Shown: positions 5,184 to 37,714 of the stretch, piece by piece | Numbering within the stretch: position 1 is the stretch's first letter | Layout: each line of letters begins with the position of its first letter | Assembly: GCF_003952505.1 (NCBI RefSeq) | Contig: NZ_CP034450.1 | Coordinates: 558,001-622,000, forward strand | DNA length: 64,000 nucleotides | Reading direction: 5' to 3' | Source of the DNA: Mesorhizobium sp. M4B.F.Ca.ET.058.02.1.1 | Lineage (GTDB): Bacteria > Pseudomonadota > Alphaproteobacteria > Rhizobiales > Rhizobiaceae | Notes under the pieces: model-generated | Database searches by the model: none | What the model was told of the DNA's origin: nothing | What the model saw: the letters and a program-made list of their open reading frames with translations, nothing else | Program-made: the position numbers and the translations under genes

Positions 5184-5927
5184 TCAACCGGCCGCCTTGG
5201 CGAGGCCGGCCACCATGGCTTCGACATCCCTGCGCGCGGCCTCCAGCGCTTCCTCGCTGCGGGCGCGCACGACGAGTTCGGTCCAGAACTTGCCGTCGCC
5301 ATATTTCGGGTAAGAGCCGATGATGGTGTCGGAATGCGCCTTCTGGATATCGGCCAGGGGGCCGCCGATCAGGCCCTCGCCGAACGGGCACTGGACCGTC
5401 ACCGACAGCATTTTGGTCCCCGCCTTCAGCGTCGGCACGACATTGTCGAGCATGGCCTGGAAGATCGACGGCACGCCGGCCATGACATGGACGTTGCCGA
5501 TGCGGAAGCCCGGCGCGATAGACACCGGATTGTCGATATGGTCGGCGCCACGCGGCATGCGCGCCATGCGCTTCCTCGCCTCGGTGTATTCAATGCCGCG
5601 CGCGGCATAGCTCGCTTCCAGCATCGCATAGGCCTTGGCGTCGTATTCGCATGGCACGCTGAACGCCTTGGCGATCGAATCGGCGGTGATGTCGTCATGC
5701 GTGGGGCCGATGCCGCCGGTGGTGAAGACGTAGGTGTAGCGAGCGCGCACGGCATTGACCGCGGCGACGATCTCGTCCTCCTCGTCGGCAACGATGCGCA
5801 CTTCCTTCAGGTCGATGCCTATGGCCGTCATGATGTCGGCAAGGTGGCCGATGTTCTTGTCCTTGGTCCGGCCCGACAGGATCTCGTCGCCGATGACGAG
5901 CATGGCGGCGGTGACAATTTCAGGCAT
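5184..5927 (-). CDS. CinA-like molybdopterin-binding domain protein
   Basis: A 247-residue protein covering only the N-terminal half of CinA, the MoCF-biosynthesis fold, with the diagnostic loop TTGGIGPTHDD near residue 75 and GDEILSGRT near residue 13. It lacks the C-terminal nicotinamide-nucleotide amidase (PncC) domain; stand-alone forms are common in Rhizobiales. GGAG eight bases before the ATG at 5927 decides the start over an upstream in-frame ATG at 5942. Exact enzymatic role is unknown. Confidence 0.88.
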   Translation of the reverse strand: MPEIVTAAMLVIGDEILSGRTKDKNIGHLADIMTAIGIDLKEVRIVADEEDEIVAAVNAVRARYTYVFTTGGIGPTHDDITADSIAKAFSVPCEYDAKAYAMLEASYAARGIEYTEARKRMARMPRGADHIDNPVSIAPGFRIGNVHVMAGVPSIFQAMLDNVVPTLKAGTKMLSVTVQCPFGEGLIGGPLADIQKAHSDTIIGSYPKYGDGKFWTELVVRARSEEALEAARRDVEAMVAGLAKAAG

Positions 5928-6063
5928 GGCTGGCTCCGGCAAACAGGGTCGCCTGAGATAGCGCGGCGATGGGCCGCCGGCAATCAGCCAGCACTATGCC
6001 ACGGCGGCGCCTTGCAGCGACATCTGCGGCGGGTAATCTGCCTCGGTCTGCTGCGGGTGGAAG

Positions 6064-24848: not shown

Positions 24849-24892
24849 GCAATTCCGGACGGAAAACCGTTACACACTTTTCCTGGAATTGC
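24849..24892. repeat. 44-bp hairpin repeat, copy 1
   Basis: GCAATTCC at the left end pairs with GGAATTGC at the right end, and the inner GGAAAA pairs with TTTTCC, separated by a GGAC/T asymmetry and an 11-nt loop. Near-identical copies lie at 33576-33619 and 35126-35169. This copy abuts the stop codon of the leftward HD-domain gene (24893-24895). Confidence 0.85.
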
Positions 24893-32411: not shown

Positions 32412-33455
32412 ATGAAGACTTCTATTCTCGGATTATTTACTGCCGGCCTGCTTGCCTGCGCCGTACCGGTTGGGGCGGCACACGCCGCCGGGGTCGCCGG
32501 TGCTCCAGCGCCCTTCGACAAGGGCGGCGTGAAGGTGGCGCTCGTCACCTTCATCTCGGCCGGCGATTTCTTCCAGGCCTATCAGGCCGGTGCGGCGAAA
32601 CAGGCGAAAGCGCTCGACATCGACCTGCAGATCTTTTCCGGCCGGCAGGATGCGGCCGCGCAACGCGACCAGATAGAGCAGGCGATCAATCTCGGCGTCC
32701 AGGCCATCATCATCGACCACGGCCAGCCCGAAGCGCTGAAGGACGTTGCACAGAAGGCGCTCGATGCCGGCATCAAGGTCGTCGCCTTCGACGTCAATCT
32801 CGACAATCCGAAGATCCCGCAGGTCGAACAATCCGACCACGAGCTCGCCAAGGCAGCGCTCGGCCAGGCGCTCAAGGACAATGGCGCATCGTTCCAGGCG
32901 GGCTATGTCTATGTAGCGGGTTTCGCGCCGCTCGATCGTCGCAACGAAATCTGGGACGAGGTCAAGAAGGCCAATCCAGGCATTGTCGAGAAGGCGCGCT
33001 GGGGCACGGTCAACGACACGACCGCGGTGTCGACCGCCGATCAGACCAAGGCGGCGTTCCAGGCCAATCCCGATATCAGCGTTGTCTTCGCCCCCTATGA
33101 CGAGTTCGCGCGCGGGGTGAAGCTCGCCACCGACGAACTCGGCATTTCGAGCAAGGTGAAGATCTATTCGGCCGACGTGTCCACCGCCGATATCACCGAG
33201 ATCACCGCGGAACGAAGCCCGTGGATGGCCACGGCAGCCACCAATCCGGCCGTCGTCGGCGCGGTTTCGGTGCGGGCTGCGGCCAAGCTGATCGCCGGCG
33301 AGGATCCGGGCCACAACATCGTCGTCAAGCCGGTGCTGCTGACCCAGGAAGAACTGCGCAAGAACGGCATCAAGACGGTCGAGGACCTCGACGCCAAGCT
33401 TCCGGCCTTTGGCCAGAGCGACGCGGCCGCCGCCAGCTGGATCCCATCCAACTGA
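32412..33455 (+). CDS. Periplasmic sugar-binding protein of an ABC importer
   Basis: A 347-residue protein with a signal peptide (about 1-25, ending AAHA). The type I periplasmic binding fold of the ribose/xylose-binding family follows: VKVALVTFISAGDFFQAYQAGAAKQA, QRDQIEQAINLGVQAIIID, VFAPYDEFARGVKLA. It would deliver a sugar to the permease/ATPase encoded nearby (35172-37714), although those genes run in the opposite direction. The actual ligand is unknown. GGGGA precedes the ATG. Confidence 0.9.
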   Translation: MKTSILGLFTAGLLACAVPVGAAHAAGVAGAPAPFDKGGVKVALVTFISAGDFFQAYQAGAAKQAKALDIDLQIFSGRQDAAAQRDQIEQAINLGVQAIIIDHGQPEALKDVAQKALDAGIKVVAFDVNLDNPKIPQVEQSDHELAKAALGQALKDNGASFQAGYVYVAGFAPLDRRNEIWDEVKKANPGIVEKARWGTVNDTTAVSTADQTKAAFQANPDISVVFAPYDEFARGVKLATDELGISSKVKIYSADVSTADITEITAERSPWMATAATNPAVVGAVSVRAAAKLIAGEDPGHNIVVKPVLLTQEELRKNGIKTVEDLDAKLPAFGQSDAAAASWIPSN

Positions 33456-33521
33456 TCTCTTCTCCCTCGCCTCGGGGGAGAAAAGAAATTGCCTGAAAGC
33501 TTGGCTCCCCTTTATTCGCCT

Positions 33522-33558
33522 GAGCGGTTCACTGTTTCACGGAACCAGTGAACCGCTC
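33522..33558 (+). terminator. 12-bp palindrome with T-rich tail after the binding-protein gene
   Basis: GAGCGGTTCACT and AGTGAACCGCTC form a perfect 12-bp stem with a 13-nt loop, followed by TATCTCTTTGTTTT. Position 67 nt after the sugar-binding protein stop suits a rho-independent terminator on the plus strand. Confidence 0.6.
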
Positions 33559-33575
33559 TATCTCTTTGTTTTGAC

Positions 33576-33619
33576 GCAATTCCGGACGGAAAACCGTTTC
33601 ACACTTTTCCTGGAATTGC
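33576..33619. repeat. 44-bp hairpin repeat, copy 2
   Basis: Same architecture as 24849-24892 (GCAATTCC...GGAAAA...TTTTCC...GGAATTGC) with a two-base loop change. It ends 6 nt beyond the stop of the leftward ThiS-like gene. Confidence 0.85.
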
Positions 33620-33625
33620 CCTAAC

Positions 33626-33919
33626 CTAACCGCCGCTGATTGCCGTCAGGATAAAAACCTCGGTGCCGGGCGCGAGCCTGGTTTCAAGGGTCGCTCTCTC
33701 GCCATCGACGAAGACGTTCATATGGCGGCGGATCGCTGGGCGGGAATCGCAGATTCGGTCGCGCATGCCGGGCCAGCGCGCGTCCAGCCCGTCGATCATT
33801 TCCTTCGTGGTCGAGGCCGGCAGTTCGACCCGGCGCGGCGCGCCAGGAAACAGGTCGATGAGCACGCCCGGGAGCCGCGCGACGACAAGGGGCACACTGT
33901 CGGCGGTGGCGTTCGACAT
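33626..33919 (-). CDS. MoaD/ThiS-like ubiquitin-fold protein
   Basis: A 97-residue beta-grasp protein ending in the diagnostic Gly-Gly (FILTAISGG). In MoaD and ThiS this end is adenylated and thiocarboxylated for sulfur transfer. No molybdopterin or thiamine genes lie near; instead it starts 8 nt after the BNR-propeller gene. The role may be sulfur transfer or protein conjugation with a non-standard partner. Its AMP-forming E1-like activator is not in the window. Confidence 0.82.
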   Translation of the reverse strand: MSNATADSVPLVVARLPGVLIDLFPGAPRRVELPASTTKEMIDGLDARWPGMRDRICDSRPAIRRHMNVFVDGERATLETRLAPGTEVFILTAISGG

Positions 33920-33927
33920 TTGCGTTA

Positions 33928-35007
33928 CTAGCCCACCACCATCGCCTCGACGGACAGGATCGCGGGCAGATGCTGAGCGATCTCCGACCAGTTTTCGCCT
34001 TCGTTGGCACTGGCGAAAAGCGAGCCGCCGCTGGTGCCGAAATAGACGCCGGCCGGCTCGAGGCTGTCGGTCGCCATAGCTTGCCGCAACACGCCTGCGT
34101 AGCAGTTCTCCTGCGGCAGGCCCTTGCGCTCGTCCATCCAGGTGGCGCCCGCATCCTCAGTCTTCCAGACCGCCGCCTTCGCGTCCGGCACATAGCGGCC
34201 GGCACTGTCGCCATTGAGCGGCAGAAGGAAGAGCGTGTCGGCGTCGCGCGGATGCGTGGCCGCAGGAAATCCGAAGGTCGAGGGAAGGCCCTTCTCGATG
34301 CTCTGCCAGTTCTTGCCGCCGTCGTCGGAGCGGTACATGCCGCAATGGTTCTGCTGGTAGAGCCGATCGGGCTTGCCGGGCGCCATCACCAGGCAGTGCA
34401 CGCACTGGCCGAACTCTGGATAGTTTTGTCCTTCGGGGAGGAAGTCGGCGCGGGTGCCGCGGTTGCGCGGCTCCCACGTCTGGCCGCCGTCCCAGGTGTA
34501 GAACACGCCCGCGGACGAGATGCCCACCCAGATCTGCTCCTTGTCCCTGGGGTGCGTGACGATGGAATGAAGGATGAGGCCGGCGCCTCCCGGGGTCCAG
34601 TCCTTGCGGCTTGGGTGACGCTGCAGGCCCTCGATGTGGCTCCAGGTGGCGCCGTCGTCGTCGGAGCGAAACAGGCCGGCCGGCTGCACGCCGGCATAGA
34701 GGCTGCCGTTGCGCCTGGCGAGGCTCCATACCGCTTTGATCGGTTCCTCGCCAGCCTCGTAGGCCAAGCCCTCGCTGGAATGCGTCCAGGTCTCGCCAAG
34801 GTCGTCCGACTTCCAGACCGCCGGACCGAACCACTCGTTGCCGCCGGCGCCGTAGATCGCGCCGGTCTCGGGGTCGCCGACGACATGGTTCATAGGCCAG
34901 TGCTCGCAAAACGGACCGCGCAGCTTCCACGACCCGCGCTTGCCATTGCTCTCGGCGATGAAGGCGCCTTTTTTCGTGCCGATGAGGACCAGGACTTTTT
35001 CCGGCAT
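33928..35007 (-). CDS. BNR/sialidase-like beta-propeller protein
   Basis: A 359-residue protein of repeated Asp-box-like units: SDDLGETWTHSSEG, SDDDGATWSHIEG, TWDGGQTWEPRNRG, SDDGGKNWQSIEKG, TEDAGATWMDERKG. These S/T-x-D-x-G-x-x-W motifs mark sialidase/YCF48-type propellers. Catalytic sialidase residues (Arg triad, Tyr-Glu) are not evident and there is no signal peptide, so it is probably a cytoplasmic non-enzymatic propeller. A strong GGAGGAG precedes the ATG at 35007. It is operonic with the ThiS-like gene. Confidence 0.85.
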   Translation of the reverse strand: MPEKVLVLIGTKKGAFIAESNGKRGSWKLRGPFCEHWPMNHVVGDPETGAIYGAGGNEWFGPAVWKSDDLGETWTHSSEGLAYEAGEEPIKAVWSLARRNGSLYAGVQPAGLFRSDDDGATWSHIEGLQRHPSRKDWTPGGAGLILHSIVTHPRDKEQIWVGISSAGVFYTWDGGQTWEPRNRGTRADFLPEGQNYPEFGQCVHCLVMAPGKPDRLYQQNHCGMYRSDDGGKNWQSIEKGLPSTFGFPAATHPRDADTLFLLPLNGDSAGRYVPDAKAAVWKTEDAGATWMDERKGLPQENCYAGVLRQAMATDSLEPAGVYFGTSGGSLFASANEGENWSEIAQHLPAILSVEAMVVG

Positions 35008-35125
35008 TTTCTCCTCCCGTTGCATACCTACCATCAAGGACGGCGGAGCGCGGGCCTAGCCGACAGGGTCAGAGACTTTTTTGCAGTCTAACCCCGTCGA
35101 GGCCAAAGTGAGAAGATATGCCGCC

Positions 35126-35169
35126 GCAATTGCGGACGGAAAACCGCAACACACTTTTCCTGGAATGGC
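35126..35169. repeat. 44-bp hairpin repeat, copy 3
   Basis: A variant of the hairpin at 24849 and 33576, with GCAATTGC at the left and GGAATGGC at the right, while the GGAAAA/TTTTCC inner stem is kept. It ends 2 nt beyond the stop of the leftward ABC permease gene. Confidence 0.8.
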
Positions 35170-35171
35170 TC

Positions 35172-36185
35172 TCAACGCTTCTTTCCGAGGCCGAAGGTCG
35201 CCGCCAGCGCGCCGACCAGCACGACACCCTTGACGAAGTCCTGCGTGTAATAGGGGGCATTCAGCATGGTGAGGCCGTTGAGCAGCACGCCGACGAAGAT
35301 GGCGCCGACGACGGTGCCGATCACATGCGGGCGGCGCTTGTCGAGCACGGCATAGCCGATCAACGAGGCGGCGACGGCGTCGAGCAGCAGCGAGTTGCCG
35401 GCCGAGACGTCGCCGCGGCCGACGCGCGAGGCGACGATGAGCCCGCCGAGCGATGCCCGCGCGCCCGAAATGACATAGGCCGAGAGGCGGTAGGCCTTGG
35501 TCGGCGCGCCGGAAAGATGCGCGGCCGTCTCGTTGCCGCCGATGGCGTAAAAGACGCGGCCCCAGCGCGTGCGCTCCATCAAGAACCAGGCAAGGAACGC
35601 GACGACCGCCATCACCACGACCGACATCGGAACCAGGTCGAAGAGCCGCGAGCGCCCGAGGATCAGGAAAGCCGGATCGTAGGCGCCGGGCACCGTCGAG
35701 CCGTCGGGAAGCACCATGCCGGCGGTGATCGAGCGGCCGCCAGTCGGGATCAGCTGCAGGCCAGCGAGCAGGAACATGGTCGCGAGCGTGGCGAGAAGAT
35801 CCGGGACGCCGACGCGCACAATCAGCAGTCCGTTGGCCAGGCCGATCAAGGCGCCCATCAGCAGCACCAGCGCGATCGTCCCGGCGGCGTCCATCTGCCA
35901 GACGACCATGGCATAGCTCGCCGCCATCACCGAGGAGGCGGCGACGCTACCGACCGAAAGATCGAATCCATCCGCCGCCATGGTGATCGACACGCCAACG
36001 CCGAGGATGGCGACCACCGAAACCGCCTGCAGGATCGAGAACAGATTGGCCGAGCGGATGAAGGCCGGCTGCACATGCCAGAAGCCGATGACCATCAGGG
36101 CAAGCAGGACGAAGAGCGCGAATCGGCGGATCTCGCGCAGAAGCGAAGGACGTGGCGCGGCATGCGTTGTGGTCAGTTCGGTCAT
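35172..36185 (-). CDS. Sugar ABC transporter permease (RbsC-like)
   Basis: A 337-residue membrane protein with about eight to ten helices. It has the family signatures ITMAADGFDLSVGSVAA and GLANGLLIVRVGVPDLLATLATMFL of the ribose/branched-chain permease class, plus the cytoplasmic loop GGNETAAHLSGAPTK that contacts the ATPase. Its ATG overlaps the ATPase stop by four bases (36182-36185), so the two are translationally coupled. Confidence 0.92.
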   Translation of the reverse strand: MTELTTTHAAPRPSLLREIRRFALFVLLALMVIGFWHVQPAFIRSANLFSILQAVSVVAILGVGVSITMAADGFDLSVGSVAASSVMAASYAMVVWQMDAAGTIALVLLMGALIGLANGLLIVRVGVPDLLATLATMFLLAGLQLIPTGGRSITAGMVLPDGSTVPGAYDPAFLILGRSRLFDLVPMSVVVMAVVAFLAWFLMERTRWGRVFYAIGGNETAAHLSGAPTKAYRLSAYVISGARASLGGLIVASRVGRGDVSAGNSLLLDAVAASLIGYAVLDKRRPHVIGTVVGAIFVGVLLNGLTMLNAPYYTQDFVKGVVLVGALAATFGLGKKR

Positions 36186-37714
36186 CTCGGGTCTCCGGCG
36201 GTCTCCTCTCCCTCGACCTTGTCGATCCGGTCGGTGAGCGAGCCATGGCCGTCTTCGGCCATATGAAGGGAATGGTTGCGCATGACGAGGATGCGGTCGG
36301 CAACCTCCAGCGCTTCCTCGGTATCGCTGGTCGCGATCAGGGTCGCCGAGCCGCTCTGGCTGCCGCGGATGGCGGCGATCAGGTCGGCGCGCGCGCCGAC
36401 ATCGACGCCTTGGAACGGTTCGTCGAGCAAGAGCAGCCGGCAAGGTGCCGCCTGCCAGCGGGCGAGCACGACCTTCTGCTGGTTGCCGCCGGAAAGTTCG
36501 TCCAACGTGTCGTCCGGTCCGCGCGCCTTGATGCCAAGCCGCACTATCGCCTCGGCGGAAACCTTTCGCTCGCGCTGGGTCCTGAGCAGGCCGCCTGGAA
36601 ACCAGCGGCTGAGATGCGGCAGGGCGATGGTGCCGGCGATGGTGGCGCCGGGAACTTCCGGAGGCAGCAGCGATGATTGCCAGCGATCCTCGGCGGCCAT
36701 GAAGACGCCCTTCTGGATCGACTGTCCTGGCCCGTTCGAAAGCCAGGGTTTTCCGTCGATCTCGAAATTGCCTTCGGCAAGGATTTCGAGGCCAAACAGC
36801 ACGCGCAGCAGCCGGCTCTTGCCGGAACCAAGCGTGCCGATGATGGCGACGACCTCGCCCGAGCGGAGATCGAGGTCGAAGGGCTCGGCGCCAGCGACCA
36901 GCCTGGCACCCTTGACCGACAGGATCACCGGCGCGGTCGACGCCTTGTCGCGACGGGTGGCAGCTTCCAGCGGCCGGCCGATCATTGCGGCCACCGCCGC
37001 CGGGAAATCGATCGGCCTGGCAAAGGCGCCGACAATGCGGCCGCCGCGCATTACGACGGCGCGGTCGGCGATCGCGGCGAGATCGCCGAGCCGGTGCGAA
37101 ATGTAGAGCACCGCCATGCCGCTTGCGCGCAACCGCCGGATGACGGCGAACAGCCGCTCGGCTTCGGTGGTCGAAAGGCTCGATGTCGGCTCATCGAGGA
37201 TCAGGACGGAGGCGCTCGCGGCGACGGCACGGGCGATTGCAATCAATTGCCGCTCCGCCGGGCGAAGGTCGATGAAGTCGCGGTCGAGCGCCAGGTCGAG
37301 ATCGATCAGTGCCGCGATCTCCTTCGCGCGCTTGCGGATCGACCTGTTCGAGACGAGAAAACGCCCGCCCGGGCTGCAAAGCTCGTCGAGCACAAGATTC
37401 TCGGCGACCGTCAGCCCGGGAGCACCCGCCTGGTCGGTTGCCTGATGCACCGTCGCGATGCCGGCGGCCTTGGCGGCGCTGGGCGAGGCGAAGGCAACGG
37501 CCCTGCCGTCCAGCATGATCGTGCCCGCATCGGGCGTGTACGAACCCGACAGGATCTTCACCAAGGTCGATTTGCCGGCGCCGTTGGCGCCCATCAGCGC
37601 CACGACCTCGCCGGGGGCGACGTCAAGGTCGGCGCCAGCGAGCGCGCGTGTCGGCCCGAAGGACTTTTCGATGCCGGTAACGGAGACGGCTATGGCTGAG
37701 GCGGCTTGTGGCAA
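36182..37714 (-). CDS. Sugar ABC transporter ATP-binding protein (two NBDs)
   Basis: A 510-residue RbsA/XylG-type ATPase with two nucleotide-binding domains. Domain 1 has GANGAGKST, DLRPAERQLIAIARAVA (a signature lacking the usual SGG, normal for this class) and LILDEPTSS. Domain 2 has a Walker A variant GTLGSGKSR, signature LSGGNQQKVVLARW and LLLDEPFQGVD. In this class the second or first site is often degenerate. The only available start is a TTG at 37714 without a strong ribosome binding site, so the start is uncertain. It energises import with the permease downstream. Confidence 0.9.
   Translation of the reverse strand: MPQAASAIAVSVTGIEKSFGPTRALAGADLDVAPGEVVALMGANGAGKSTLVKILSGSYTPDAGTIMLDGRAVAFASPSAAKAAGIATVHQATDQAGAPGLTVAENLVLDELCSPGGRFLVSNRSIRKRAKEIAALIDLDLALDRDFIDLRPAERQLIAIARAVAASASVLILDEPTSSLSTTEAERLFAVIRRLRASGMAVLYISHRLGDLAAIADRAVVMRGGRIVGAFARPIDFPAAVAAMIGRPLEAATRRDKASTAPVILSVKGARLVAGAEPFDLDLRSGEVVAIIGTLGSGKSRLLRVLFGLEILAEGNFEIDGKPWLSNGPGQSIQKGVFMAAEDRWQSSLLPPEVPGATIAGTIALPHLSRWFPGGLLRTQRERKVSAEAIVRLGIKARGPDDTLDELSGGNQQKVVLARWQAAPCRLLLLDEPFQGVDVGARADLIAAIRGSQSGSATLIATSDTEEALEVADRILVMRNHSLHMAEDGHGSLTDRIDKVEGEETAGDPR

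Follow-up and report, generated by a model that had tools for sequence, protein, structure and literature searches.

The analysed stretch of Mesorhizobium DNA (64,000 nucleotides in its full length, hereafter the window) encodes a small ubiquitin-fold protein (Ubl) next to an Asp-box propeller, and the association between them is well supported, and we regard the two proteins as very probably functional partners. The pair probably represents an undescribed sulfur-transfer or protein-modification pathway in which the Ubl is likely a sulfur carrier, and for the chemistry of the propeller we can put forward candidates only. To our knowledge, every bacterial sulfur-carrier Ubl that can be named has a client of an established type (ThiG, MoaE, cysteine synthase, BexX, TtuA, or YcaO-TfuA), and a propeller client, if true, would be a new kind. 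A widespread family that records annotate as exo-alpha-sialidase, with the orphan structure 3b7f and a Pseudomonas aeruginosa pair among its members, would thereby gain a role.

The two genes sit inside a sugar-type ABC transporter locus, where a PAS-domain protein is also a neighbour. The features of the locus are:

33626..33919, reverse strand: ORF of the Ubl, a ThiS/MoaD-family, CysO-like ubiquitin-fold protein of 97 aa with the C-terminus TAISGG (ILTAISGG)
33928..35007, reverse strand: ORF of the 7-bladed Asp-box (BNR) propeller, 359 aa, ATG at 35007
32412-33452, forward strand: sugar-type ABC transporter binding protein
35175-36185, reverse strand: ABC transporter permease
36185-37714, reverse strand: ABC transporter ATPase
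33475..35175, no strand: segment missing at the matching site of the same-genus genome G505 (L228), containing the pair and two repeat copies
33584..33616, forward strand: dispersed intergenic repeat copy, downstream of the Ubl gene
35134..35166, forward strand: second copy of the dispersed intergenic repeat, upstream of the propeller gene

The original prediction described a Ubl with a terminal Gly-Gly starting 8 nt after an Asp-box propeller gene, and both the ORFs and the Pfam domains bear this out: 8 nt (33920-33927) separate the stop codon of the propeller gene from the Ubl ATG, the Ubl matches Pfam ThiS with 26 bits (cut-off 22.5), and the propeller matches Sortilin-Vps10 (52.6 bits) and BNR (33.4 bits), both above cut-off. 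The larger protein has repeated Asp-box hairpins and a propeller fold and, judged by eye, no signal peptide. Direct tests are possible, since the proteins are small, come from adjacent genes and show no obvious signal peptide. That no thiamine or molybdopterin genes are near also proved correct, the immediate neighbours being the ABC transporter and the PAS-domain protein; the only domain of that kind checked within the window, MoCF_biosynth together with FLAD1_M (5187-5942), is 28 kb from the pair. In G505 the transporter genes abut, with flanks that are 84% and 88% identical and 43 bp separating them. The closest propeller among the best 80 of 565 named loci, from Mesorhizobium neociceri, is 95% identical; this gene (L060:6001-7083) carries a premature stop, and at L060 the pair is there and most of the transporter has no match, which fits gain and loss of the segment alike. 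The dispersed repeat has 48 copies, partly tandem, at no more than 2 mismatches in the host genome (6.46 Mb, one contig); two of them bracket the gene pair, and a further window copy is found at 24857-24889.

The Ubl has a beta-grasp fold that is closest to CysO (PDB 3dwg, 3dwm, 4n6e). According to the titles of these entries, from Mycobacterium tuberculosis and Amycolatopsis, the partners of CysO are a cysteine-pathway protein and BexX, whereas here the partner is a propeller. The window Ubl has a free C-terminal Gly-Gly, ending SGG, and Gly-Gly is the end of 89 of the 94 complete paired Ubls, with three that extend beyond it and two that have lost it. The three extended ones (L032, L108, L127) look as though they required trimming. 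Position 66 is His in 82 of 91 paired Ubls, and most of the paired Ubls end S-G-G (S95, 83/91), unlike the CysO-type Ubls read by eye, which have Phe at position 66 and mostly end A-G-G. SAMP1, Urm1 and TtuB are Ubls with both carrier and conjugation roles, but the window Ubl reaches only 31.3 bits with the SAMP1 model (NCBIfam NF041918), below its curated cut-off of 60. The same genome has four other ThiS-family matches. Two are ThiS genes, one per copy of the thiamine cluster, with ThiG partners confirmed by Pfam; the third is a MoaD adjoining a MoaE, also Pfam-confirmed; and the fourth, without a Gly-Gly end, adjoins a Pfam-confirmed molybdopterin-binding oxidoreductase. Because all of these have partners, the Ubl of the pair is the only one without a known client. 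The duplicated thiamine cluster (L001, L003) comprises ThiO-, ThiS-, ThiG- and ThiE-like ORFs, named by reading except for ThiG, which was assigned by Pfam.

The pairing recurs across bacteria. Among 192 alphaproteobacterial genomes the propeller is present in 37 (E <= 1e-20) and the pair in 31 of these 37, a recurrence that makes the observation more than chance. Searched over the same genomes, the Ubl profile gave 32 strong matches (E < 1e-15; next best 4e-8), 31 of them beside a propeller. The propeller genomes without a strong adjacent Ubl are G020, G060, G100, G104, G178 and G188, and in G060 the propeller is cut by a contig end. A Ubl is present in 62 of the 80 named loci, which are the best-scoring of 565 and thus biased to close relatives, and a survey of 299 genomes over the phyla gave 15 propellers, 13 with an adjacent Ubl and two without (L203, L205). 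Of 146 genomes of the genus, 11 encode the propeller, and in all 11 it is accompanied by a Ubl with the ISGG end. All of the 95 adjacent Ubls found among 121 loci, a set in which near-identical species may recur and 30 loci span just 1.5 kb per side, are on the propeller strand, 79 in the propeller-first order and 16 in the Ubl-first order. According to record titles and tree labels, the paired phyla are Pseudomonadota, Chloroflexota, Actinomycetota (Thermoleophilia), Acidobacteriota, Planctomycetota and Omnitrophota; the Ubl tree was built from 40 of the 95 adjacent Ubls, to which L180, which is unlinked, and rows for comparison were added. Propeller and Ubl distance matrices correlate with an r of 0.935 that includes species kinship and was reached by 0 of 999 permutations (91 of the 95 pairs, with partial propellers, L064 and L090 excluded). 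One pair is located on a Pseudomonas aeruginosa plasmid, and 50,697 phage records gave no match. No natural fusion of Ubl and propeller was seen, a 1019-residue frame in G109 being a propeller with a separate Ubl ahead of it. The constant pairing in other bacteria to which the original prediction looked is supported (31/37, 62/80, 13/15 and 11/11), with the qualification that some lineages keep the propeller without any such Ubl.

A constant third gene was rejected as a candidate, as none is constant across the 104 loci whose flanks extend further (clustering by blastp of ORFs of at least 90 aa, with propeller, Ubl and frames antisense to them set aside). The largest neighbour cluster, from 13 of the 104 loci, consists of frames antisense to a divergently oriented MarR gene. 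A profile search located this regulator no more than 400 nt upstream of the propeller gene at 15 of the 121 loci, and all 15 have a Ubl:

L069:5445-5891: divergent MarR regulator
L056:5464-5910: divergent MarR regulator
L115:5463-5909: divergent MarR regulator
12 more loci: divergent MarR regulator

The MarR domain was confirmed by Pfam, 14 of the 15 regulators have a Cys-x-Cys near the N-terminus, and the nearest PDB chain is 4fx0 (E 1.2e-20), which we take to be the redox-sensing MosR. These are hints of thiol or redox control that do not fix the function of the pair, and at the window's own locus that profile found no such regulator. Other neighbours occur in 10 of the 104 loci each: a YCII-domain protein, a sigma factor with DUF6596, a VOC-type protein and an ArsR-type regulator, identified by Pfam, and a response-regulator-like and an alcohol-dehydrogenase-like ORF, identified by reading. 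On a Rhodobacter plasmid (L140:5601-9128) a propeller without a Ubl adjoins the ergothioneine genes egtB and egtD; a link to ergothioneine was discarded because tblastn over the propeller loci found egtB/egtD in that record only.

Propellers are common scaffolds, and with no constant third gene and a commonest extra neighbour present in just 15 of 121 loci, the propeller could be a scaffold on which the Ubl docks to reach an enzyme encoded elsewhere. We consider this improbable in view of the pocket that an alignment of 115 propellers revealed (K13, W137, H204, Q219, H221, R271 and R308), whose residues, placed by strand order and not from measured coordinates, lie together on the side away from the Asp boxes. 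For the structure alignments, A6 and A7, 73 rows were taken from the 115 of A4 and 65 from the 71 of A5. According to PMC2716378, the corresponding face bears the active sites of glycosidase propellers, and such a conserved cluster of His, Arg, Lys, Gln and Trp would be needless in a mere scaffold. There is no invariant Cys, the best being C202 (90/115), which counts against the propeller as a sulfur-accepting enzyme.

Public records label the propeller 'exo-alpha-sialidase' or 'sialidase family protein', and it might accordingly be a true sialidase-type glycosidase, the Ubl a spare MoaD/ThiS and their adjacency operon hitchhiking. However, the alignment of the 115 propellers shows no conserved acidic residue on this active-site face, with faces again assigned by strand order: the Asp/Glu columns of at least 85% are the Asp-box residues D69, D117, D173, D45, D255 and D314, on the Asp-box side by strand ranges. 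Moreover, the F510_1955 glycosylhydrolase model (NF045728) gives 68.1 bits, below its curated cut-off of 175, the ThiS and MoaD proteins of the genome are already partnered by ThiG and MoaE, and the pairing extends over six phyla and two gene orders. All these data make a glycosidase with an incidental neighbour very improbable.

A sulfur-carrier role of the Ubl, which we favour with some confidence, would require an activating E1, and the original prediction had proposed to search for one elsewhere. This search was successful, as the same genome has one strong ThiF/MoeB-type gene, together with three weaker matches, one of them above cut-off. An E1 is also found in 36/36 and 10/10 other genomes and in 12 of 14 controls, and being in nearly every genome its presence says little. 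Just two of the 121 loci, a set with 30 members that span 1.5 kb per side, have an E1 beside the pair; in both of these distant loci (L137, L139) it is a divergent gene with a rhodanese domain adjoining the pair. Rhodanese-E1 proteins such as MOCS3, Uba4 and MoeZ make Ubl thiocarboxylates. In L189 a fusion protein unites a related Ubl with E1 and rhodanese, and the only strong unpaired Ubl of the 192-genome survey (G041) clusters with a rhodanese-E1, TfuA and YcaO, in the manner of TfuA-YcaO thioamidation clusters. Papers place ThiS-like proteins, thiF, moaD and moeB near TfuA-YcaO. The TfuA and YcaO of G041 had no tblastn match in the propeller loci. The alphaproteobacterial cluster at L174:7064-11281, with a CysO-like Ubl, a rhodanese-E1, TfuA and YcaO, likely encodes a thioamide pathway that has a sulfur carrier of its own. 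A Prok-JAB (JAMM) peptidase, as in the CysO-Mec type, was rejected as a fixed component because it is not constant among the 31 paired genomes, where 10 have a strong match (E < 1e-15), 16 have one above cut-off and four have none at E <= 0.001.

Tentatively, we read the two genes as a module for sulfur transfer. In this scheme a MoeB-type E1 would adenylate the Gly-Gly end of the CysO-type Ubl, and a sulfur donor would convert it into a thiocarboxylate. The propeller would be the dedicated client, its positively charged funnel opposite the Asp boxes taking up the carrier tail and an anionic small substrate, to which the sulfur would then move from the Ubl tail. That the propeller is the sulfur-accepting enzyme is a possibility that we place slightly short of even. 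A broader formulation, evenly balanced in our judgement, is that of a Ubl-dependent propeller enzyme of a new class, in which a CysO-like thiocarboxylate would deliver sulfur into an anionic metabolite or Gly-Gly would act as a switch on Lys13, the partnership having been recruited more than once and lying in some lineages beside a thiol-bearing MarR regulator.

The propeller could instead be a covalent target, with the Gly-Gly of the Ubl joined to it, at Lys13 as first candidate, and switching a binding activity. K13 is retained in 112 of the 115 propellers (the exceptions are L070 and the distant, Ubl-less L045 and L046), and L070 has both the sole K13 change (K13R) among 93 paired propellers and a Ubl without Gly-Gly, which also has N for H66. 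The chance of this coincidence is about 2 in 93, for a single case spotted post hoc. Furthermore, Ubl sulfur carriers of Thermococcus are reported to conjugate too (PMC11323500). On the other hand, the Ubl of L062 has lost Gly-Gly (it ends SGD) while its propeller keeps K13, the Ubl-less propellers, L045 and L046 excepted, have K13 as well, and a conserved Lys amid His and Arg equally resembles substrate binding. We hold modification of the propeller to be unlikely, if slightly less so than a docking role, and return to the sulfur-accepting enzyme as our preferred reading.

The propellers without an adjacent Ubl count against the favoured reading. Of the 18 named loci of this kind, 16 had their genomes searched (L103 and L125, at contig ends, were excluded), and six of the 16 genomes have no Ubl match at E <= 0.001; when five survey genomes are added, nine of the 21 genomes searched whole have no match at that threshold and two have weak matches only. 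Elsewhere the Ubl is separated from the propeller, as in G192 (Elioraea), with a paired-type Ubl away from it, and in nine genomes (G199-G207) with Ubls of the paired profile at other places. The Ubl-less propellers retain the pocket except L045 and L046, the only two of the 115 that lost most of it. As some propellers have no Ubl and a few Ubls end without or past Gly-Gly, neither of the two is strictly necessary.

BexX, a barrel of the ThiG type, differs in this from the propeller. It is a client enzyme of 2-thiosugar synthesis that gets its sulfur from a Ubl and borrows the carriers of other pathways (PMC11323500). Similar borrowing could explain the propellers that persist without a Ubl, or the pocket may perhaps have a role of its own. 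The propeller Reut_B4987 (PDB 3b7f) was solved alone, and at the Cupriavidus metallidurans locus (L141) the Ubl precedes the propeller, whereas in the window it follows. In agreement with the original prediction, which knew of no described function for the pair, we found none in the openly published papers searched, some of the searches being of low power. Neither 'propeller' nor 'BNR' nor 'sialidase' occurs in the main text of Iyer 2006 (PMC1779556), and the passages of PMC1796856 treat another beta-grasp superfamily.

Finally, the Bil or E1-E2 defence layout, with E1, E2 and JAB genes beside a Ubl, was not found at the window's locus. Elsewhere in the same genome (G000:C1:4946600-4950100; L224:7425-10060), an E1-like gene (BilD model, 1.2e-15) adjoins a JAB gene (BilC model, 1.1e-16), together with a 205-aa ORF to which PADLOC gave no match and two ORFs with IetS matches, and this could possibly be a Ubl-type or defence islet.
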